DNA of 64,000 nucleotides from Stutzerimonas frequens (GTDB lineage: Bacteria > Pseudomonadota > Gammaproteobacteria > Pseudomonadales > Pseudomonadaceae), in NCBI RefSeq assembly GCF_024448335.1, contig NZ_JAMOHM010000008.1, positions 62,001 through 126,000 on the forward strand, written 5' to 3'. Positions 47,835-58,867 of this stretch are shown here, in pieces (position 1 is the first letter of the stretch; each line of letters starts with the position of its first letter). The notes under the pieces were generated by a model. The model was not told the origin of the DNA and ran no database searches. It saw nothing but the letters and a program-made list of their open reading frames with translations. The translations under genes were made by a program, and so were the position numbers.

Positions 47835-49166
47835 TCAGTCCCTGACCGCCCAGAATTTCAGTTCGAGCCCGGCGAAGTCACCGGACACATGGAAGGCAAA
47901 GCCGCCGGAACGCTCCAGTTGCGCCTGGTCCTCGGCGTTGAGCTCCAGCGCGAAATAGGTCTTGCCGGCGTGGAAGGGGATCTGCCGCGGCGCCACCGGC
48001 AGCGGCTTGAGGCGGATGCCCGGCAGATGCAGGTTGACCAGCTGGCGGATGCGCTCCACCGGGCCGATCTTCAGGTGCGCCGGCAGCCGCGTGCGCAGGG
48101 TTTCCGAATCGCACTGGGCGCTGGCGGCGAGCACGAAGGACGCCGTGCCGAGCAGCTTGTGGTCATGCAGCGGCGATACCTGGATGCCGTACTGACGCTG
48201 CTGCAGCAGCAGCTCGATGGCGTGCTGCTCGAGCACCATCGACAGCACCTGGCGGATCGCGTCCATCAGCTTGCGGAAGCTCGCGCCCTGATCACCGTGC
48301 TGGTAACGGCCATCCAGGCGCGGGCGCTTGCTCTCGCTGGAGAAGGTCGCCAGCTCGCCGAGCAGGCCAAGCAGATCGCGGTAGATCTGCTCCGGATGCA
48401 CCTGCTCCACGCCCAGGTAGTGGCGTAGCACCGGTTCGTGACGGTTGATCAGCTGCAGCATCATGAAGTCGCCGACCTCGGCGCCACCCACCTTGCCGGT
48501 GGCGCTGATTCGCTCGGCAAGGGTATCGCCGCGGTGGGCGAGCATGCTGATCACTTCCTTCAGGCAGGACAGCAGATAGCCGGAAGCTTGGAAGTTGACG
48601 TAGGTGGGAATGAATTCCGCGTCGAGGCTGATGACCCCGTCCGGTGTGGTGTCCAGCACCTCGCACAGCTGCAGCTTCACGTAGGCCTGGTCGCTCTGCT
48701 GCTCGCCCAGCAGCAGGCGGAAATCCGGCAGGCCGGTGCTGACCTGGCTGGTGCTGCTGTCGCCGGCATTGGAGTCGGCGACGTCCAGTTCGTGGGCGGT
48801 ATAGCGCGCCAGCACGTCCTTCTGCTCGGGCCGGCGGGTTTCGATGTGGTTGCCGGTGACCAGCGGCAGCGCAAGGTAGACCGGTGTGCTGCCGGTGTTC
48901 GGCGGAATGTCCAGCGCCAGTGGCTCGCGCTCGCTGCCCAGCTCGAACAGCGTGCCGTCGGGGAGGATGCCGCTGGCCTGGCTGAGCACCAGCTTGCCCA
49001 TGTTGAGGAACTGGCGGTCGATCTCCAGATTGAAGAATCCCCAGGCATAGCTGCTCAGCTTCTGGGTGCGGGCCTTGAGTTGGTGATCGTAGTATCGATC
49101 GCTCTGCTGGAAGTGCTGCGGACGCAGCAGCATGCCTTCCTGCCAGACAACCTTATGCAGGCTCAT
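47835..49166 (-). CDS. tssK: Type VI secretion baseplate protein TssK
   Basis: A 443-residue TssK/ImpJ/VasE protein. The N-terminal KVVWQEGMLLRPQHFQQSDR signature is exact for the family, and MLAHRGDTLAERISATGKVG lies in the middle. TssK links the baseplate to the TssJLM membrane complex. It is 2 bases after tssJ and 5 bases before tssL. It is the only baseplate component in this cluster: TssE, TssF and TssG are not present. Confidence 0.95.
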   Translation of the reverse strand: MSLHKVVWQEGMLLRPQHFQQSDRYYDHQLKARTQKLSSYAWGFFNLEIDRQFLNMGKLVLSQASGILPDGTLFELGSEREPLALDIPPNTGSTPVYLALPLVTGNHIETRRPEQKDVLARYTAHELDVADSNAGDSSTSQVSTGLPDFRLLLGEQQSDQAYVKLQLCEVLDTTPDGVISLDAEFIPTYVNFQASGYLLSCLKEVISMLAHRGDTLAERISATGKVGGAEVGDFMMLQLINRHEPVLRHYLGVEQVHPEQIYRDLLGLLGELATFSSESKRPRLDGRYQHGDQGASFRKLMDAIRQVLSMVLEQHAIELLLQQRQYGIQVSPLHDHKLLGTASFVLAASAQCDSETLRTRLPAHLKIGPVERIRQLVNLHLPGIRLKPLPVAPRQIPFHAGKTYFALELNAEDQAQLERSGGFAFHVSGDFAGLELKFWAVRD

Positions 49167-51319: not shown

Positions 51320-51367
51320 TGGCGCATCCGGCGGGATTCGAACCCACGACCCCTCCTTCGGAGGGCA
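51320..51367 (-). pseudogene. 3' part of an interrupted tRNA-Arg(CCG) gene
   Basis: Read on the minus strand this holds the anticodon loop CTCCGAA, a T-arm with GGTTCGAATCCC, the acceptor strand CGGATGC, discriminator G and CCA. No D-arm or 5' acceptor strand precedes it; the sequence upstream on that strand is unrelated. Its acceptor strand pairs perfectly with GCATCCG of the 5' fragment at 58661-58701, so the two are halves of one gene separated by 7.3 kb. One base of the 3' anticodon stem differs from the expected form (GGAG rather than GGCAG), so this side is also altered. Confidence 0.85.
51355..51367. repeat. Left attachment-type core repeat
   Basis: The 13 bases CCTTCGGAGGGCA are the anticodon region of tRNA-Arg(CCG) and recur in the same orientation at 58661-58673. 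They bound the inserted segment. A direct repeat of a tRNA anticodon segment is what a tyrosine-recombinase integration would leave. The core could extend differently if mutations have occurred. Confidence 0.7.
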
Positions 51368-51380
51368 ATGCGGTACAGGA

Positions 51381-51473
51381 ATGTTGAATGACAGCAGACG
51401 CTCGAAAATGCTTCTAAGTGCCGTCCTGACAGGCTTTAGCCTTATCTCGCTGCCTGCATTTTATAGCTCTTAG
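51381..51473 (+). CDS. Possible 30-residue peptide with a signal-like sequence
   Basis: A short frame starting 14 bases inside the left core repeat. It has a basic start (MLNDSRRSK) followed by a hydrophobic stretch (MLLSAVLTGFSLISLPAFY) and a stop two residues later. It resembles a signal peptide without a mature protein, so it may be the remnant of a gene cut by rearrangement, or chance. An AGGA is too close to the ATG to be a normal ribosome site. The rest of 51474-51674 shows no gene. Confidence 0.25.
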   Translation: MLNDSRRSKMLLSAVLTGFSLISLPAFYSS

Positions 51474-51674
51474 CGGTATCTAAGGGTGGTTATCTCGGGC
51501 ACAAAAAACGAAATGGGGCCTAGCGCTTTTGACACCTAGCCAGCCCCTAGCTCGTCCTGCCGCCTTCTCACCGAACATGAATTCGACTAGCGGCTCGCGG
51601 CCTACGGGCAGCGACTTAGCCAGCACGGTCACAGGTCGCAGTGGACGCTAGTACAATCAGTAAGGCCTGCCGCT

Positions 51675-52772
51675 TTGGGCGTCCCTCTTGCCGCCGCTAT
51701 CTCCCTTGTCATGCTTTCCAGCGCGCAAGCGGCTAACAGCACGGCTGATGTAGAACAGCTTGGCAACAACAACGAGGCTACCGTCACTCAAGCGGCAGGC
51801 GGTGATTTAAAGGCTGCAGCCATCGAGCAGGACGGTGATAACAACTTCGCTGTGGCCTACCAAGAAGGCTCGGAGTATACGCTTGAGAGCACCCAGGTAG
51901 GCAGCTCGAACGTGTCCTTCGCCATTCAGGAGGGATTCAGATCTACCGCAACGATGTCGCAGGACGGCGTAGGTAACCGCCAAAATGTGCTGCAGCAGTC
52001 TGTTGAAGGAAGCCTGTTGGCCGAAGTCACTCAGGTTGGTAACGGCAACGATGCGTACGTTGTTCAAGTCGACGGTGAATACAACGGCGCCCATATCCTC
52101 CAGACGGGAAATCTGAACAAGCTCGACGTCGAGCAGACCGCACGGTTTAACAGCCTACGTGCCACTCAAATTGGATCTGAAAACACCGTGCTCGTAAACC
52201 AGTCCGGCGGAGGAACGGGCGTCACCAGCCAGTCCGGTTACGCAAATACAATCGAGCTGAATCAGTCAGCTCTGATAAACGGCGCTTACACAGCAATTGA
52301 CCAGTCGGGTGAATTCAACGACGCCAAGGTCTATCAGGAAGTTGGCGGCCGTTATCCAGGCGGCAACGTGATCCTCAGCCAGGATGGCACTGGCAACATG
52401 GCCGACGTTGCGGCTATCGGTGGCTGGGCGAACATTGAATTAGTCAAACCGGCGTAGATAACGAGTTGACCTCCTACCAGTCAGGTCGCGCCAATAACGT
52501 CAAAGGCTATTCAAACGGTGATTTCAACCAAGTCGACATCATGCAGGACGGCGACGGCAGTACATTGGATATCGCGCAAAATGGTTCAGAGAACGTGATA
52601 TCGGCGACTCAAAATGGCAGCGCTATCTATGGTGATACCGCCAGTATTGCTCAGACCGGTACCGCCAACGTTGCAACGCTCACACAGGGCTTATGGAGAG
52701 GGATTTGGTGGTCACACCGCCAGTATTTCTCAAAATGGCCTAGGCAACAGCGCAACGGTTACGCAGCGCTAA
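51675..52772 (+). pseudogene. Curlin-repeat (CsgA/CsgB-like) gene, frameshifted
   Basis: The product has a signal-peptide-like start (LAAAISLVMLSSAQA) and then about 300 residues of curlin-type repeats, each roughly 22 residues with a QxGxxN core (for example VEQLGNNNEATVTQ, MSQDGVGNRQNVLQ, TQNGSAIYGDTASIAQTG). Such proteins are exported and form amyloid fibres. The frame is broken twice. Near 52436-52442 the repeats move from one frame to another, giving an early stop at 52455. Near 52695-52703 they return to the first frame and end at TAA 52770 (SISQNGLGNSATVTQR). No ATG opens it; a TTG at 51675 is the only in-frame start, so the 5' end may also be lost. Two sequencing errors are the alternative to a pseudogene. 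Confidence 0.7.
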
Positions 52773-52784
52773 GACCAGAAATAC

Positions 52785-52811
52785 AAAAAGCCCGCTTTCG
52801 CGGGCTTTTTT
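52785..52811. terminator. Bidirectional terminator
   Basis: An 11-bp stem AAAAAGCCCGC / GCGGGCTTTTT with a TTTC loop, with a T-run in both directions. It lies between the convergent curlin-like gene and the membrane-protein operon and can end both. Confidence 0.92.
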
Positions 52812-52822
52812 GCGGCTGTGGA

Positions 52823-54694
52823 TCACCCAAAGAATGGCCTGAACACACTGCCAAACTGGTAAACCAGAGGTTCGAGTTTCAGAGCCCACGTCAGCACGGC
52901 GCCCAGGTCTGAGCCTTCTCCGCCTAGGAATGTTGCAATCTCGCCATGGCTGGCCTCAATCGCGAGGGGGCCAAAGATGATCAGGGCCAGTCCGGCGATT
53001 TTGAGCGGAACCGGACCAAGAAACTTGAGCAACGCCATCAAGCTGAAGAACAGGCTGAAGACAATGGCAACTGGCGGTACGACCAGAGCGCGCACGGCCT
53101 GCTTGCCCTGCTCGGCAGAGGCGCCGCCCGGAGCTAGATCAGGTGCCCTGGCGACAAAGCGCTCGCGAAGTTCGTTGCGGTGCTTATCGAGCTGCGGCTG
53201 TATGCATTTGGCCTTGAATTGAGCAGCGCTAAGATAAGCATTTGAACCGGTGCACTTGGCACTGGCCAGGCGCTCGCGTACGCCGTTATTGACGGACTTG
53301 AGGTTACGGAAGGCCTGCTCACTCAGCTCGGTGCTTACAACCGCGCCAAAGCGCTGCTTTGAACCCTTGGCCCATTCATCGTCGACACGCTTGCGCGCCT
53401 TTCCATCAACGGCGGCCATCACGGCCTTTTCATCGTCCGGGCACCAGTTTGACGGCACATTGATGCCTTGGGAGCGGGCTTTCGCGCTGGCTTGGCTGCA
53501 CACAGCCGGATATTGCATGAATTGCTTCTCGGTCATGTTGGGCGGGTAGCCAACTTGAGCCGTGAAGAGTCGCTTTTCATGTTTGCTGTAGCCGGCGGCG
53601 ACCGAGTCGCTGCTGATCTCACGAACCTCGCGATCCATGACGGTGTTTGCAATCAAACCCACCAGGTTGAGCGATACGTTCCGCCCATTGGTGGTCACGG
53701 CATCTGCGGCAGTTGCCATTCGAGTAGTGATGAAGTCATCGCGTGGAATCGCGAAGCCGTAGATTTCAGTGATGCCCTTGTTGTAGGTCTCATTAGCCCG
53801 GTTGATGCACTGGTTGTCGCGGCATCTGCCCAGGGCGTTGTTATTCTGGAGCATCAGCTCCAGGGTTTTTGACTGCCTGGCGCCTGCCTGGTTGGCCAGC
53901 GACTGAGCCTCATTTCGATATTTCACGAAACTCGCGCTGGTTTGCTCGCGTATCTGGCGCAGCGCTTGCCCGGACTTGCCGCCGGCCTTTGCCATCGCGT
54001 CATGGTACTGATCAACCTGCTTGAGGTACTGCTGGTACTGCTCCGCTACCCCCTTTCGCACCTTCAGGTAGTCTTCCCACTTGGCCTTGCCCTGGTCCTG
54101 CGCAGACTGAAGCACCACACGGTTGAGGATGGTGTCCCGCGAGGAAGAGAGCGTTTCATGCACCTTCTCGTTGTCCTTGGCCAGCATGCCCATCAAGGCG
54201 AGCAAAACCTTGTCTTCTGACGTGTCGCCTACAACGGTGTCGCCAAAAACAACGGCGCCTGATGCGGCGGCGTATTTGAACAGGTTCATGTCCAACGCCT
54301 GCTTGCGCTCTTGCCCTGTCGTTGCATCCACATAGGCGTCGACAATTTTGGGCTGTAGCCAGTGCATGAACGGCACGGTGCCAAACAGTAGGCCAGCCAT
54401 GATCACAAAGTTGGCCCAGACCCCTATCCGCCGGCTGGTGCAAAACAGCCACTCGATAAGGTTCATGAGGACGAAGGCTAGACCGACGCCAGAGAGCGTC
54501 TCGCCTAGAAATGCCATCCTGTCCAGACTGTCCTTGGTGACATCGATGTCTGATGCCATATCGACAAGGGCGGCGTTGAAGCCAAACTCAACTGCGATGT
54601 ACAGCAGACTTGCCGCACCCAGCATGAATGCCCAGCTCTTTGCGGTGCGGGGTCGGGCTGCAGCTTTGTTAGGTGTTGTGCTGGTCGTAGTCAT
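52823..54694 (-). CDS. Large multi-pass membrane protein of unknown function
   Basis: A 623-residue protein of no family that I recognise. Three N-terminal membrane segments lie at about 20-42, 60-84 and 90-113. A 410-residue hydrophilic region (115-530), rich in helix and predicted coiled coil, follows. The C-terminal 90 residues hold two to three more membrane segments (from about 535). The central region carries paired cysteines (GRCRDNQC, VCSQ...NWCPDD, KCTG...AKCIQ) that look like disulfides, suggesting that it faces the periplasm. Its ATG overlaps the lipoprotein stop (ATGA). It is the last gene of a three-gene operon inside the tRNA-flanked insertion. Confidence 0.7.
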   Translation of the reverse strand: MTTTSTTPNKAAARPRTAKSWAFMLGAASLLYIAVEFGFNAALVDMASDIDVTKDSLDRMAFLGETLSGVGLAFVLMNLIEWLFCTSRRIGVWANFVIMAGLLFGTVPFMHWLQPKIVDAYVDATTGQERKQALDMNLFKYAAASGAVVFGDTVVGDTSEDKVLLALMGMLAKDNEKVHETLSSSRDTILNRVVLQSAQDQGKAKWEDYLKVRKGVAEQYQQYLKQVDQYHDAMAKAGGKSGQALRQIREQTSASFVKYRNEAQSLANQAGARQSKTLELMLQNNNALGRCRDNQCINRANETYNKGITEIYGFAIPRDDFITTRMATAADAVTTNGRNVSLNLVGLIANTVMDREVREISSDSVAAGYSKHEKRLFTAQVGYPPNMTEKQFMQYPAVCSQASAKARSQGINVPSNWCPDDEKAVMAAVDGKARKRVDDEWAKGSKQRFGAVVSTELSEQAFRNLKSVNNGVRERLASAKCTGSNAYLSAAQFKAKCIQPQLDKHRNELRERFVARAPDLAPGGASAEQGKQAVRALVVPPVAIVFSLFFSLMALLKFLGPVPLKIAGLALIIFGPLAIEASHGEIATFLGGEGSDLGAVLTWALKLEPLVYQFGSVFRPFFG

Positions 54695-55113
54695 TGGCGA
54701 GCCCCAGTACCCAAGATGTCAATGGGGGGAGGGAGTGGGTCAAAGCTGATTGACTCCTCTTGAACCCGGACGGGTGCTCTTTGCACTGGCCTGGGCGCCT
54801 CTGGCTTAGCTTTGACCGATCGGGTGGAGGCAGGCGCAGCAGAAGGGGCGGCCTGCTCGTCCAAGCTCCGACGGTTGCCATGTATATCCACGTATTGATC
54901 TAGTTCCTGCAAGCGGATCTGCTCGGCAAGATTTTCAAGATCGGCATCGGACGGCAGCTTTCGGATGATGTCGGCCTTTTTCTGGCTTTCAGCCAGAGCT
55001 TGGGCTTTTTGCTCCTCCGTCATGGGCATTTGGTGAGTTGGCTGGTACGGATTGCCCGCACAACCGGCGAGCATGGCCAGTGCAGCGATCAGTAGAATAG
55101 AGCGCATGTTCAA
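54691..55113 (-). CDS. Proline-rich lipoprotein of unknown function
   Basis: A 140-residue protein with a lipoprotein signal ending in LAGC (Cys18). The mature part has a helical charged middle (EEQKAQALAESQKKADIIRK) and a proline/alanine-rich tail (SAAPASTRSVKAKPEAPRP and following). The tail may be an extended spacer through the periplasm. It overlaps both neighbours by ATGA, so the three proteins are probably made together. It has no recognised domain. It may tether or bridge the phosphodiesterase and the membrane protein. Confidence 0.7.
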   Translation of the reverse strand: MNMRSILLIAALAMLAGCAGNPYQPTHQMPMTEEQKAQALAESQKKADIIRKLPSDADLENLAEQIRLQELDQYVDIHGNRRSLDEQAAPSAAPASTRSVKAKPEAPRPVQRAPVRVQEESISFDPLPPPIDILGTGARQ

Positions 55114-56276
55114 GACTCCAGTCCGAGGATTTTGCAGGTTCGAATGGGTGTGGAGTCGACAATTGCCCCGTCTGGTAGCGTCCCCCTGGCTTTTAGCTTC
55201 TTGAGACCGTCCAGGTGATGTTCATTGCTGTTGATGGTGTAAGACTTGACCTTCATGCCGGCAGCGTGAGCCCGTCTGATGATGCCGGGATCATCGAGCA
55301 GATCCTGGATCTCGACATGCAGGCCTGAGTTCCTACCCAGCAGCTGGCGAAACTGCTTGAGCTCACGCGTGCTGTTGAGGCCCGGAAACTTGTAGGAGCC
55401 AAAATGCTGCTTCGCAAAGTTTGCGCCGGCGCGCAGAAGGCGGTTGCCTTTGAGGTGCGCCAGCTCCTTACCGTGGTTGGCCTTTGTCCAGGCCTCCAGC
55501 GCTTTGCGATTGGGCCCCTGTATCACGGCCATGTAGCTGGTCTGATTCTGCTGGCGCATGCATGAAAGCGCTTTGGTGCTATTGAGCTCTGAATAGGCGA
55601 CACCTTCGTAGCCAAGCGTCAAGCGTGCCATGACATCGAGTGTATGCAGCGCCTTGCAGCTTTTGTAATTTTTGATCTCGATATTCATGGTTTGGCCGGC
55701 TTGGCGGTAGGCGCCGGTCAAAACCATCGTCGATAGAACATCACCTGCAGGCTCGGACGTGTTCAATCCATCTCGTCCACGCATGAAGCCCTGTGTCCAC
55801 TCGTTGCGGGTCAACCTTGATACAGGCTGGCTACCGAATGGGTGCACCAAAGTGCGCTCATTGGTTTTGTCGTGGTGCAGAATCCAAGTGTCATCCCTTA
55901 GCTGCTGAGCATCTACTTCAACGGCGTTGTAGCGAGCGGCAAACCCGGCCCTTACGCCCCAGATCCCGTTTTCAGGGTATAGCGGGTGTCCACGGTGCGC
56001 TTCAAGCTCAAGGCCCTTGCAGCCGAGCTTCTCTGGTTCATTCAGACGCCTGACAACACCCACCTGATCAATGTACAGCCCCCGTGTCCGCAGGACCTGC
56101 TGTTCGGGCTCTCGCCTGTCGTCCGCATCGGCTGGCAGCCAGGGGATCGTGGTCTGCTTCGCCATCTCGACCTGCCGGCGTTGCTCGGCCATCTCCTTGG
56201 AGATGAAGTCAGACGCAACTACCTGTGATGCAAACGCAGCCGTTAGGCCCAAGATAGGTAAGTGCCGAATATTCAC
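55110..56276 (-). CDS. Exported glycerophosphodiester phosphodiesterase-like protein
   Basis: A 388-residue protein with a signal peptide (MNIRHLPILGLTAAFASQVV, cleavage near VAS). A GDPD-type TIM barrel begins at residue 92: HRGHPLYPEN (His94, Arg95, Glu102), VEVD (Glu120, Asp122) and HHD (135-136), then MNIEIKN for a metal-ligand glutamate. These are the catalytic and metal positions of glycerophosphodiesterases, so it may be active. The N-terminal 90 residues are extra. The start is a GTG with GGGAC upstream. Substrate might be phospholipid head-group diesters, teichoic-acid-like polymers or lysophospholipid. It is the first gene of the three-gene operon. Confidence 0.75.
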   Translation of the reverse strand: MNIRHLPILGLTAAFASQVVASDFISKEMAEQRRQVEMAKQTTIPWLPADADDRREPEQQVLRTRGLYIDQVGVVRRLNEPEKLGCKGLELEAHRGHPLYPENGIWGVRAGFAARYNAVEVDAQQLRDDTWILHHDKTNERTLVHPFGSQPVSRLTRNEWTQGFMRGRDGLNTSEPAGDVLSTMVLTGAYRQAGQTMNIEIKNYKSCKALHTLDVMARLTLGYEGVAYSELNSTKALSCMRQQNQTSYMAVIQGPNRKALEAWTKANHGKELAHLKGNRLLRAGANFAKQHFGSYKFPGLNSTRELKQFRQLLGRNSGLHVEIQDLLDDPGIIRRAHAAGMKVKSYTINSNEHHLDGLKKLKARGTLPDGAIVDSTPIRTCKILGLES

Positions 56277-56592
56277 AATAAGTCCCTTAAATCCCTTTCC
56301 TACATGCCGGCAAGTGGTTTGCCGGCGCGCAGGTTATTGAGTCGTGCAGAGACGACTCGCCTTATGGCGCAATGCCTGAATTGGTGTGTGCGGTTTAACG
56401 CCCGGAAAGGACAGCCGATCAGTTCAGGCTTTACTTAGCCGTACCGAGGCTGTTTCCGATATGTTGCTGTCGCCAGCACCCAATGCCGTTGCCACCGATT
56501 GAGCCTGGACGTCCTGATACCTTCCTTGAGTCTGTGCTGCTGTGCCGGCCCGCTGTGCATGTTGCAGGCCGGTGCATCCCTTCGGGTTGCCG
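56277..56592. other. Non-coding stretch upstream of the three-gene operon
   Basis: No gene is supported here. Two hairpins occur close to the operon start: GCCGGCAA / TTGCCGGC (56306-56326) and GAGTCGT / ACGACTC (56339-56358). They could lie in the leader or act as a boundary from the truncated gene on the same strand. The promoter of the GDPD operon should be in this interval, but no consensus was identified. Confidence 0.4.
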
Positions 56593-57000
56593 TTATTTAA
56601 TGGAAAAGCTCATTTCGTATCCCGTTCCGCTTTCATTATCGGTCCGTTTGACGGTCAACGTCGAGTTCCGCACCACAGCGCCAGCGTCGCGACCGCCGGT
56701 GATGGCGGAGGAAATAGTGGGCGGCAGGCGCTTACCAAGGGCTATCGTGCTCAGACGCTGCGAGGCCTGAAGGAATGCTAGGTTTGACGTCGACAACGCT
56801 TGCTGAGGGTTCACGTCGAGAATGATCTGCAGGAGCCAGGCCTTATTTTTTATAGCCTCTGGCTTCATACGAGAGCTGATTCTGTGGTCCTGCGCTTTCG
56901 CGGCCGAAGGCTCGGCTCTCGCTGAGACATTGGCCTTGATTGTTCTCGTCGACGGTTCAGCTACTGTGGAGAGCTGTTCTACTGCCAGGTAACCACAGAC
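56593..57000 (-). pseudogene. 3' fragment of an unidentified gene cut by the IS element
   Basis: An open frame of about 135 codons runs leftward from the IS boundary to a stop at 56593. It has no upstream stop in the interval, and its first internal ATG is at 56868. The C-terminal part (TLTVKRTDNESGTGYEMSFSIK reads as alternating polar and hydrophobic, in short sections) looks beta-rich. No family is recognised. The 5' part was not found on the far side of the IS, so sequence has probably been lost. It could also be a chance open frame. Confidence 0.35.
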
Positions 57001-57005
57001 GGGTT

Positions 57006-57866
57006 CTACCCCATTTCCACGGACGGTTTGAAAAGGGCTGAAAACTTCAGATCTTGCCTGGCGACTCTACGACGCATTCTCGGGTTGTGAAACCGCTCGA
57101 TGTAATCGAATAGATCTGCTCGTGCCTCATCGCGAGTTCGATACGACTGATGGGCAACCCGCTCCCGTTTGAGCTGACCGAAGAAGCCTTCACAGGCAGC
57201 GTTGTCGCCGCAATGCCCGACGGCACTCATGCTGCAAACCAGCGTGTTGCGATTCAGAAAGCGCTGGTAGTCAGCACTGGTGAATTGGCTGCCGCGATCC
57301 GAATGCAGGATCACTGACCAGTCACCCTGGCGCTGCCAGATTGCCATCTCCACTGCTCGGATCACCATTTGCCGATCCTGGCGGTGATGCATCGACCAAC
57401 CGATCACCAGCTTGCTGTACAGGTCGAGCACTACGCACAGGAAGAGTTTGCCTTCCAGTGTGGCTATTTCCGTGATGTCCGTGACCCACTTGCGCTCCGG
57501 TTCCTGTGCAGTGAAATCGCGCTCCAGGAGGTTTTTCACGCCTGCTGGGCGGCCACTGACGGCTCTTCCAAAGCCACGTCGTTTCCGGCGTGGCCAGCCT
57601 TGAATTCGCTCAGCCGCCATCAGGCGAGCAACTCGGTTCAGGCTGACGACTTCGCCCTCGTCGAGCAAATCCTCGTGCATTCGTGGCGCTCCAATCACGC
57701 CCCGGCTGTCCTCGTGAATCTCCCGAATGCGCTTCACCAAGCGCGCATTCTCCTGAGCTCGCGCACTTGGTTCACGATCCTGCCAGGCGTAATAGCCGCT
57801 GGCAGAAACCTTCAGGCAACGGCACATCAATCGTACCGGGTACCCGTTGCGGCAGCGCTGGATCAC
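57006..57866 (-). CDS. IS3-family transposase OrfB, DDE catalytic part
   Basis: A 286-residue rve-type integrase-core protein. The acidic triad is visible: first Asp in WVTDITEI, second Asp in [11 protein letters not shown], and Glu in [14 protein letters not shown]. The N-terminal HTH_21-like segment ([18 protein letters not shown]) is also typical. It begins within the orfA stop codon (ATGA) in the -1 frame. Translation is probably mainly through a frameshifted OrfAB. The C-terminus ends at the inverted repeat. Confidence 0.92.
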
Positions 57867-58165
57867 CGTGTACCGCTCGATGACTCCTTGGCAAAGTACG
57901 CTGCCGCGTCTCTTAAAAAATCACGTTCCTTGGTTACTCGGGCCAACTCGCGCTTGAGACGGGCAAGCTCCTCATCCCGCGGACTTCCCGTTCCAGGGAA
58001 GACTTTCTCAGTGCCTGGTTGCGCCTCCCGAACCCAGCGGGTGAGCAGGTTGGGAGCCACACCAATCTCTAGGGCCACCTGTCGGCAGCTGGCCCCTGAA
58101 CGACGAACCAGCTCGACGGCTTCCCGTTTGAACTCGGGACTGTATTTCTTGCGCTTCATGAACAC
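57863..58165 (-). CDS. IS3-family transposase OrfA, DNA-binding part
   Basis: A 100-residue protein with a helix-turn-helix ([36 protein letters not shown], residues 11-45 approximately) and a leucine-zipper-like helix ([22 protein letters not shown]). This is the HTH_Tnp_1 type usual in IS3 elements. A T_TTT_TTA slippery heptamer near its 3' end is in the correct register for -1 frameshifting into orfB. Confidence 0.92.
57914..57920 (-). promoter_or_regulatory. Candidate -1 ribosomal frameshift site
   Basis: On the minus strand TTTTTTA is read GAT-TTT-TTA in the orfA frame, matching an X XXY YYZ slippery heptamer. After a -1 slip the frame (AAG AGA CGC ...) stays open and joins the orfB frame, giving a fused OrfAB transposase. 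Confidence 0.6.
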
Positions 58166-58221
58166 TCCTTCAGCTCGGTGTGAGCTTACTTGAAAGTGTC
58201 CGTGCTAACGGGGTAGAACCC

Positions 58222-58521
58222 GCCCTCCGGCCACCCGCCTGGGCAGGCAGCGACGCAAGATTTCTTCACTACCATCGACTAGTAGCTGCAGCTCGATTTA
58301 TGGCTAGTACTCAAAATCCCCGCTCGCAAAATAGGGCGCCAGACTTTGAGGCACGGTTTAGGCACAGAATTGGCACAGCCCGAAAATGAGTCGAAAAGGA
58401 GCGCTGCGGGCAGTACTCACCACAATCTGAGTATCCGCATGGAGATCAATTTTGAGAGATTAGCCAATTCGGGATCTGGATCGGCAGAGCCTTGGGAAAA
58501 GGCTTTTAAATCATACAGATA
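58222..58521. other. Non-coding stretch between the IS and the tRNA
   Basis: Nothing in these 300 bases supports a gene. It is AT-richer than the flanking chromosome. It is the most likely place for the end of a lost integrase gene, but no integrase motif was found in any frame. Confidence 0.4.
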
Positions 58522-58598
58522 TGGCGCACCAGGCGGGATTCGAACCCACGACCCCCGCCTTCGGAGGGCGGTACTCTATCCAGCTGAGCTACTGGTGC
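58522..58598 (-). tRNA. tRNA-Arg (anticodon CCG)
   Basis: A complete 77-base tRNA on the minus strand. The acceptor GCACCAG pairs with CTGGTGC, then discriminator G and encoded CCA. The D-arm is TAGCTCAGCTGGATAGA, the anticodon stem CCGCC/GGCGG closes loop CTCCGAA (anticodon CCG at 58562-58564), and the T-arm contains GGTTCGAATCCC. It lies 62 bases inside the right core repeat of the insertion. It differs from the interrupted native tRNA in both the acceptor and anticodon stems, with compensating pairs, so it is a separate gene rather than a restored copy. Confidence 0.97.
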
Positions 58599-58660
58599 GT
58601 ATATGTTGCGGCGGTCTATTTGACCATTAGCTGACACCCTTCTCAACTCGATGAGTATTG

Positions 58661-58673
58661 CCTTCGGAGGGCA
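58661..58673. repeat. Right attachment-type core repeat
   Basis: CCTTCGGAGGGCA, identical to 51355-51367 and in the same orientation, in the anticodon region of the split tRNA-Arg. It marks the right edge of the inserted segment. Confidence 0.7.
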
Positions 58674-58701
58674 GTACTCTATCCAGCTGAGCTACGGATG
58701 C
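58661..58701 (-). pseudogene. 5' part of the interrupted tRNA-Arg(CCG) gene
   Basis: On the minus strand this is GCATCCG (5' acceptor), the D-arm TAGCTCAGCTGGATAGA, and the anticodon stem and loop ACTGCCCTCCGAAGG, after which homology to tRNA stops. The missing 3' half lies at 51320-51367. The acceptor halves pair in all seven positions. Confidence 0.88.
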
Positions 58702-58867
58702 GTTGCGGGGGGCAATCATACGCATGTCGTTGACGGGCGTCCATGCTGGTGCGGCTGGGCGGATATGCCCGGGTGCGGCTTTTTCGCAGCTGCCGATGAC
58801 CGGGCCGGCTGGTACCCTTGCGTGTCGCGGCCGGGGGCCGTGGGTGTTCGATGGCAAGGGGATGGAG

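Follow-up and report, generated by a model that had tools for sequence, protein, structure and literature searches.

A split tRNA-Arg(CCG) gene and its complete replacement in a probable site-specific island remnant of Stutzerimonas frequens

Results

A native tRNA gene in two halves and a complete copy between them

The window analysed here, 64,000 nucleotides of the Stutzerimonas frequens contig NZ_JAMOHM010000008.1 (positions 62,001 to 126,000), contains a 7.3-kb insert that splits the native transfer RNA (tRNA) gene tRNA-Arg(CCG) at its anticodon loop. The window is part of contig C8 of a draft genome of 4.38 Mb in 32 contigs (labelled G000; other genomes and loci are cited by similar handles), and features lie on its minus strand unless stated otherwise. 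The dead native 5′ half (58661–58701; GCATCCG...CTGCCCTCCGAAGG), on the chromosomal side of the left attachment site (attL), drew no tRNA call and is 93% identical to the complete tRNA; the dead native 3′ half (51320–51367; TGCCCTCCGAAGG...CGGATGCGCCA) occupies the chromosomal side of the right attachment site (attR). A 13-bp core is found at each end of the insert (attL copy, 58661–58673; attR copy, 51355–51367), and its plus-strand sequence, CCTTCGGAGGGCA, occurs exactly twice on that strand of the window, at 51355 and 58661. The single ARAGORN call in the window is a complete tRNA-Arg(CCG) (58522–58598) with acceptor GCACCAG and anticodon stem CCGCC/GGCGG, 62 bp inside the insert from the core and in the same orientation as the native gene. 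Its anticodon, checked in relatives too, is CCG, as in the split tRNA. ARAGORN called no tRNA at either insert junction, so neither rebuilds one. An earlier prediction made from the sequence alone had described just this arrangement (a tRNA-Arg divided by the insert, a 13-base core in both halves, junctions that restore nothing and a different complete tRNA-Arg(CCG) within), and the coordinates, halves, core and ARAGORN calls bear it out. It had also placed the 3′ half of the tRNA-Arg here; the location is right, although one anticodon-stem base is absent (GGAG, against GGCAG in intact relatives).

The complete gene was then the sole full match to itself in a search of all 32 contigs, which otherwise recovered the two halves, tRNA-Arg(CCT), tRNA-Arg(TCT), tRNA-Val(GAC) and, where contig C17 ends close to tRNA-Ser(GCT), a match of 21 bases. 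A tRNA census (49 Rfam matches) likewise contained tRNA-Arg(CCG) once. Thus no other tRNA-Arg(CCG) was found in the draft genome by whole-genome search or census. The census did not recover tRNA-Arg(ACG) or tRNA-Leu(CAG), and the draft or the search therefore has gaps; the missing tRNA-Arg(ACG) may be represented by a broken end, the 21-base match next to tRNA-Ser(GCT) (C17:94144-94164, locus L007). Across the genus, 55/56 genomes had one tRNA-Arg(CCG) besides dead halves, the exception being G021, where the copy is cut by a contig end; the copy in G017 is diverged. tRNA-Arg(CCG) would be the sole reader of CGG, and hence essential. CGG accounts for 8/77 arginine codons in three type VI secretion genes near the insert.

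Comparison of the window flanks with 35 loci carrying an uninterrupted tRNA identified the empty site that the original prediction had proposed to look for. At L172 (G033), L186 (G028) and L187 (G006), both flanks matched over about 1.2 kb at 88–92%, the gene was intact from GCATCCG to CGGATGC, and there was neither a second tRNA copy nor a GCACCAG version. Both flanks also matched at L025 (G030; 85–88%), where the single native gene is the GCACCAG allele, and at L024 save for 158 bases adjoining the tRNA on its downstream side. Most of the other uninterrupted loci matched the upstream flank alone or a short piece of it, and the downstream side of the tRNA is therefore variable among species.

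Recurrence of the arrangement

A dead 5′ half followed closely by a complete tRNA is not peculiar to this strain. Genomes were searched for a tRNA 5′ half with another tRNA start 50–80 bases on, an exact D-arm being required; the resulting counts are lower bounds and are biased toward tRNA-Arg(CCG). The pattern was present in 13/56 genomes of the genus (14 sites, window genome included), in 37/398 genomes and 9/19 genera of a family sample (the 13 of the genus included), and in 4/370 genomes of a class sample (window genome included). A reversed-pattern control gave no matches in the 56 genomes of the genus, and the 13 genomes sharing the pattern rule out chance or assembly error as its source. 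In an integrase-based search of named genomes, 285 stretches matched the search pattern and 199 encoded relatives; among the best 80 of these 199, at least one dead 5′ half lay directly upstream of a complete tRNA at 13 loci, from Stutzerimonas, Pseudomonas, Halopseudomonas, Idiomarina, Marinobacter, Marinomonas and three metagenome-assembled genomes (MAGs). At one of the three MAG loci the tRNA was tRNA-Arg(CCT) instead of tRNA-Arg(CCG). No ARAGORN tRNA lay within the stored flanks of 53/80 integrase loci.

Other layouts were also encountered. At L128:4875-5190, two dead 5′ halves stand ahead of a complete tRNA-Arg(CCT); the system is therefore not limited to tRNA-Arg(CCG). L066, L068 and others have a complete tRNA behind its apparent own promoter and no dead half, and appear to represent the ordinary mode in which an island restores its target; the integrase relatives that adjoin tRNA-Pro(CGG) at L118 (Terasakiella pusilla), L126 (a Betaproteobacteria MAG) and L132 (a Nitrosomonadales MAG) apparently do so as well. 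Displaced tRNA 3′ pieces of 45 bases with a different breakpoint (G024:C1:2453300-2453344 and G042:C9:157164-157208), about 9 and 18 kb respectively from the complete gene, probably mark ordinary restoring islands at the same tRNA. At L123:8930-9100, next to an integrase relative, a complete tRNA-Arg(CCG) and a tRNA 3′ half are arranged head-to-head.

The window insert as a decayed island

Both ends of the window insert resemble islands found elsewhere. The 379 bases from the core to position 58282 (58282–58660, comprising a left-end remnant at 58282–58521, the complete tRNA and the spacer) match the left ends of the G001 and G043 islands at 96–97% identity, which upholds the earlier proposal that the insertion brought its own replacement. 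A right-end remnant adjoins attR (51368–51686); 51367–51686 and 51686–52963 are respectively 93% and 92% identical to the right end of an island in G031. Between these ends, 52964–58221 matched nothing among the 36 loci compared. An element-encoded tyrosine integrase is present in the islands of G048, G032 and G044; this protein and two recombinase-like proteins of the relatives are absent from the window copy, and the best match to the integrase anywhere in the window genome is 26% identical. Because only the end remnants match islands and the genome holds no close relative of the integrase, the window copy is probably an immobile remnant of a site-specific island.

The interior holds an IS3-family insertion sequence (57006–58165; Pfam, and NF033516 transpos_IS3) with open reading frames (ORFs) at 57863–58165 and 57006–57866; a stretch of 117 bases separates them from the left-end remnant, and it is on this side that relatives have the integrase. 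The remaining cargo comprises a glycerophosphodiester phosphodiesterase-like protein of 388 amino acids (aa) (55110–56276; PF03009), a 140-aa protein, perhaps a lipoprotein, with sub-threshold family matches alone (54691–55113), a 623-aa predicted protein with no Pfam, NCBIfam or PADLOC match (52823–54694) and, on the plus strand, a 260-aa curlin-repeat protein (51675–52457; PF07012). Downstream of the tRNA, the chromosome carries a type VI secretion gene of the VasE family (47835–49166), separated from the dead 3′ half by about 2 kb.

Recombinases and cargo of the related islands

A Pfam search placed an integrase beside or inside the arrangement in G044, G032, G009, G048, G023, G049, G043 and G001, and both of the two integrases scanned had arm-binding and catalytic domains. 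In G048, where 49 kb separate the tRNA halves, the integrase (PF12167, arm-binding; PF00589, catalytic) shares its strand with two upstream ORFs of 1036 and 833 aa, which overlap by four bases and are separated from it by about 500 bases; together the three make up a trio of 833, 1036 and 386 aa, the last being the arm-domain protein. The 1036-aa family retains invariant R, K, H-x-x-R-H, GH and Y residues (21 sequences); 3/4 other members scanned passed the Pfam cut-off for phage integrases and the G048 member fell just below it. The 833-aa family seems to be a relative that is more degenerate. Homologues of the 1036-aa and 833-aa proteins were encoded by 38 and 42 ORFs, respectively, in 100 loci, some of which overlap.

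Cargo varies. The G048 island (L033-L034) carries copper and heavy-metal resistance genes (multicopper oxidase, CopB, a CusS-like kinase, an RND pump and a P-type ATPase), and that of G029 carries dynamin-like proteins. Near the integrase of G048, on the side of the replacement tRNA, a 122-aa ORF (L032:4839-5207) gives a match to N-terminal RtcR sequence (PADLOC model RtcR_PspF2, E 6.6e-28) and has relatives in L037, L042, L047, L049, L057-L061, L063-L065, L067 and L076. RtcR senses broken tRNA ends, and it is curious to find such an ORF inside an island by which tRNA genes are broken.

A phage identity was considered and rejected. Pfam scans found no phage structural domains in 7 ORFs of the window insert or in 20 ORFs of G048 and G029 (19 of them inside islands); the 865 matching records in a phage collection were all below 60% identity to the integrase, the ten listed being at 30–31%; and integrase loci numbered 2 in IMG/VR against 199 stretches in genomes. 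On these three grounds the element is classed as a genomic island and not as a prophage.

The recombination site and candidate promoters

Joining the ends of the insert yields ATTGCC-CTCCGAA-GGCAAT, in which inverted repeats flank a centre of 7 bases, and the corresponding native site is the anticodon arm, CTGCC-CTCCGAA-GGCAG. The predicted hairpin of the joined island site was modestly stronger than shuffled sequences (z −1.9), and at that value it was set aside as evidence for an RNA structure.

Two promoter-like sequences precede the replacement tRNA. Upstream of the dead 5′ half, the promoter scan reported a native site, TGGACG-17-TATGAT (58715–58743; 9/12), similar to sequence found before the uninterrupted genes of relatives. 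The replacement lies about 100 bp downstream of this retained site, in the same orientation, and no terminator-like site was reported between them. In addition, the spacer that joins the core to the replacement (58599–58660) contains TTGAGA-17-TCAAAT, a promoter-like pair or alternatively a recombinase arm site; among 26 aligned spacers, TCAAA was conserved in 21. A spacer-type pair with the same 17-base spacing precedes the uninterrupted tRNA gene of G052, and a promoter is therefore favoured. Given these sites, expression of the replacement tRNA is plausible.

Both G001 (L134, before the dead half) and G052 (L179, before the uninterrupted gene) have TTG-17-TCAAAT in place of the native promoter usually seen there, and a lineage like theirs may be the source of the promoter and tRNA of the island. 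The idea that the dead half of G001 is itself a former replacement was dropped, as G052 has similar upstream sequence with an uninterrupted gene and no dead half.

The anticodon stem of the replacement

Replacements tend to differ from the genes they accompany at the anticodon stem. Pairs were formed from each adjacent dead half and the next tRNA, excluding L147 (a duplicate of L142), L159 and L160 (contig-start cut). The stem differed within 45/52 pairs, or 43/50 without the duplicates L056 (of L169) and L070 (of L164). Even where the acceptor stems were identical (17 pairs), the anticodon stem differed in 14 (13/16 without duplicates). Uninterrupted genes in Stutzerimonas read GGCAG in 42/42 cases, 41 behind the usual native promoter and that of G052 behind another, compared with 0/13 Stutzerimonas replacements; this count leaves out G021, whose copy has GGCGG and is truncated by the contig end. 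The altered stem belongs to the recombination site, the loop of which, CTCCGAA, is unchanged in Stutzerimonas sites. This suggests that the replacement has been made a poor target for the recombinase of its own island, which is likely, if unproven, in Stutzerimonas.

Stacked islands

In G043 (S. stutzeri KOS6) the native 5′ half is followed by the 5′ half of a type-2 replacement (GCACCTG, TTGCC) and then by a complete type-1 replacement (stem type CCGCC/GGCGG), and the distant 3′ half has the type-2 acceptor. A type-1 island has therefore split the tRNA of an earlier type-2 island. Two dead halves ahead of a complete tRNA were also seen at L149, L152, L098 and L128. A further apparent stack, at L159 (G207), was discarded since the contig contains an N there, the sign of an assembly join.

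A recurrent one-base loss in dead 3′ halves

Nine dead 3′ halves in the genus still match through the anticodon loop, and five of them (G000, G001, G023, G044 and G048) lack the same base, a loss seen in 0/55 other copies. In each case it perfects an inverted repeat (CCCTCC-GAA-GGAGGG in G000, G048 and G023; CCTCC-GAA-GGAGG in G001 and G044). Quasipalindrome template switching is described as a known type of mutation hotspot (PMC7202029), and the palindrome-perfecting loss is, judged by its sequence, a signature of this process.

When joined with the loss, the native tRNA has a predicted fold with a rearranged anticodon arm, a comparison limited by the fact that the minimum-energy fold of the intact sequence likewise forms no perfect cloverleaf. 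Owing to the loss in the 3′ half, excision should not return a working tRNA, and the island's copy would therefore be indispensable whether or not the island is mobile. Where both halves are sound in sequence, as in G029 and G005, core-to-core excision should rebuild the native gene. The expectation that the insert would be hard to lose thus stands for the window, with its lost base and no close integrase relative, and should not hold for islands with sound halves.

Discussion

Origin of the window insert

We consider it highly probable (about 0.9) that a site-specific island split the single tRNA-Arg(CCG) gene, supplied a complete replacement and has since shrunk to the remnant represented by the insert. 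A tyrosine integrase would have joined the palindromic island site to the anticodon arm of that gene; because the shared core spans only about 13 bp, neither junction would rebuild a tRNA, and the island would itself have carried a complete tRNA-Arg(CCG) just inside attL. The replacement would be transcribed by read-through from the native promoter, from the spacer promoter or from both, and would serve as the cell's only CGG reader; integration without it would presumably be lethal. Its altered anticodon stem would protect it from the island's own recombinase. The IS3 element may have removed the integrase, and the one-base loss, arising by template switching in a half freed from selection, would lock the island in.

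Two other origins of the layout have to be set against this one. Were the two genes an ancestral tandem pair, one of which was split by an ordinary (for example, insertion sequence-mediated) insertion, one would expect what is indeed observed, a complete gene of the same isotype and orientation about 100 bp away. However, only a single gene is present in relatives whose flanks match, islands of other species and genera have the same spacer and replacement although their flanks differ, and the replacement's anticodon stem is unlike that of all 42 uninterrupted congeners; we regard a tandem pair as extremely improbable. Only slightly less remote is a classical island that restored the tRNA on entry and acquired its split appearance through later rearrangement. 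That form does exist close by: L066 and L068, with integrases about 80% identical, have the complete tRNA directly behind the native promoter and no dead half, and G031, in the same genus, is of this form with a displaced 3′ half 33 kb off. Against it, the split-plus-complete layout recurs with near-constant spacing both within the genus (13 genomes) and in genera beyond it, and in the sites inspected no tRNA 3′ half lay on the island side of attL.

The alternatives that touch only parts of the island reading carry considerably more weight. The stem might have changed for reasons unrelated to the recombinase, as an escape from tRNA-cutting defence or simply because the tRNA came from a foreign source. 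Nuclease evasion through changes in the anticodon loop is reported for phage tRNAs, the acceptor stem of the window's replacement differs too, and 7/52 pairs have an unchanged stem; yet it is the loop that is constant in Stutzerimonas sites and the stem, part of the recombination core, that changes, even between tRNAs with identical acceptors. We think such a cause rather doubtful but well worth keeping in view. The 3′-half deletion, similarly, may have been spread by homologous recombination or made by the integrase rather than arising by independent template switching. Stutzerimonas is naturally transformable, a 110-bp island end is common to G048 and G023, and both G001 and G044 show a further change beside the core. 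On the other hand, two acceptor sequences are represented among the five cases and each case has a 3′ flank of its own, the deletion is missing from G005 even though its island end is that of G048, and the loss exactly perfects an inverted repeat. Spread or integrase action accordingly has an appreciable chance of being right, falling clearly short of even.

Several observations weigh against the account preferred here, of an island that replaces its target tRNA with a protected copy. In the window strain neither an integrase nor an excision product nor a transcript was seen, and an assembly gap could conceivably conceal a second tRNA-Arg(CCG). The consensus promoter scan did not report the spacer pair, and TTG-17-TCAAA occurs in only 15/26 spacers. 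The pattern search, as noted, favours tRNA-Arg(CCG). The pairs behind the stem comparison share ancestry, reducing to 26 distinct combinations of which 22 differ, and at L158, L161 and L162 the split tRNA itself already carries the CCGCC stem. Because of these three loci, the CCGCC stem is no shield against every integrase of the family, and an altered stem was rejected as a universal rule of immunity; it stays a hypothesis.

A broader scheme may be put forward, tentatively and at a little less than even odds, in which, in many Gammaproteobacteria, an essential single-copy tRNA gene is relayed as well as inherited: islands with the recombinase trio would split it and substitute copies that they themselves spare owing to the altered anticodon stem, these could be split in turn by later islands of another type so that dead 5′ halves pile up, and the palindrome-perfecting deletion in the dead 3′ half would make the takeover irreversible.

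Relation to known systems

No description of this island family was found in a literature search that had most subscription journals outside its scope. Classical tRNA-targeting islands, in the available part of the Islander account (PMC4383910), likewise have a tyrosine integrase, a tRNA target and a displaced fragment at the far end; they restore their target with island sequence at the junction, whereas the window insert does not. GInts (described in 2017; PMC5385486) are likewise non-phage elements, with terminal repeats that are short and imperfect and a cargo that varies and can include copper resistance, as in Stutzerimonas-type islands; their three tyrosine-recombinase-like proteins may have a counterpart in the trio of the window insert's relatives, which the window copy lacks. 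They have a ginABCD operon with a small GinD, to be set beside the trio of 833, 1036 and 386 aa by description only, and the word ‘tRNA’ occurs 0 times in the main text of that source as available, whereas the Stutzerimonas-type islands target a tRNA anticodon arm.

The same logic as that of the Stutzerimonas islands is found in the tRNA-dependent lysogeny of actinobacteriophages (Guerrero-Bustamante & Hatfull 2024; PMC10865867), as set out in the accessible portion of that account. Common to both are short-core insertion into a host tRNA gene such that neither junction rebuilds a tRNA, and a disrupted tRNA that is otherwise single-copy; the window displays both, the latter within a draft genome. 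The authors state that the prevalence of tRNA-dependent lysogeny beyond actinobacteriophages needs study (PMC10865867), and phage-borne substitution of a tRNA gene in S. meliloti has been discussed in its terms in what is available of that report (PMC11476347). The present islands suggest that tRNA-dependent logic recurs as a non-phage system in Gammaproteobacteria, and the natural series from native gene to first and then second replacement offers a view of a mobile element taking over an essential gene. Questions thereby made testable are self-immunity through a change of target site in the payload, the passing of a tRNA gene between competing islands, and the turning of reversible insertion into a permanent one. 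The known system involves a temperate phage with a proven tRNA requirement and, in the actinobacteriophage example, a tRNA that overlaps another gene (PMC10865867); in contrast, Stutzerimonas presents a non-phage gammaproteobacterial island, known from sequence, whose tRNA sits about 60 bp inside attL. Stem alteration and stacking, neither of which is mentioned in the accessible portion of the lysogeny account (PMC10865867), and the degenerating dead half set the Stutzerimonas-type islands apart from tRNA-dependent lysogeny.

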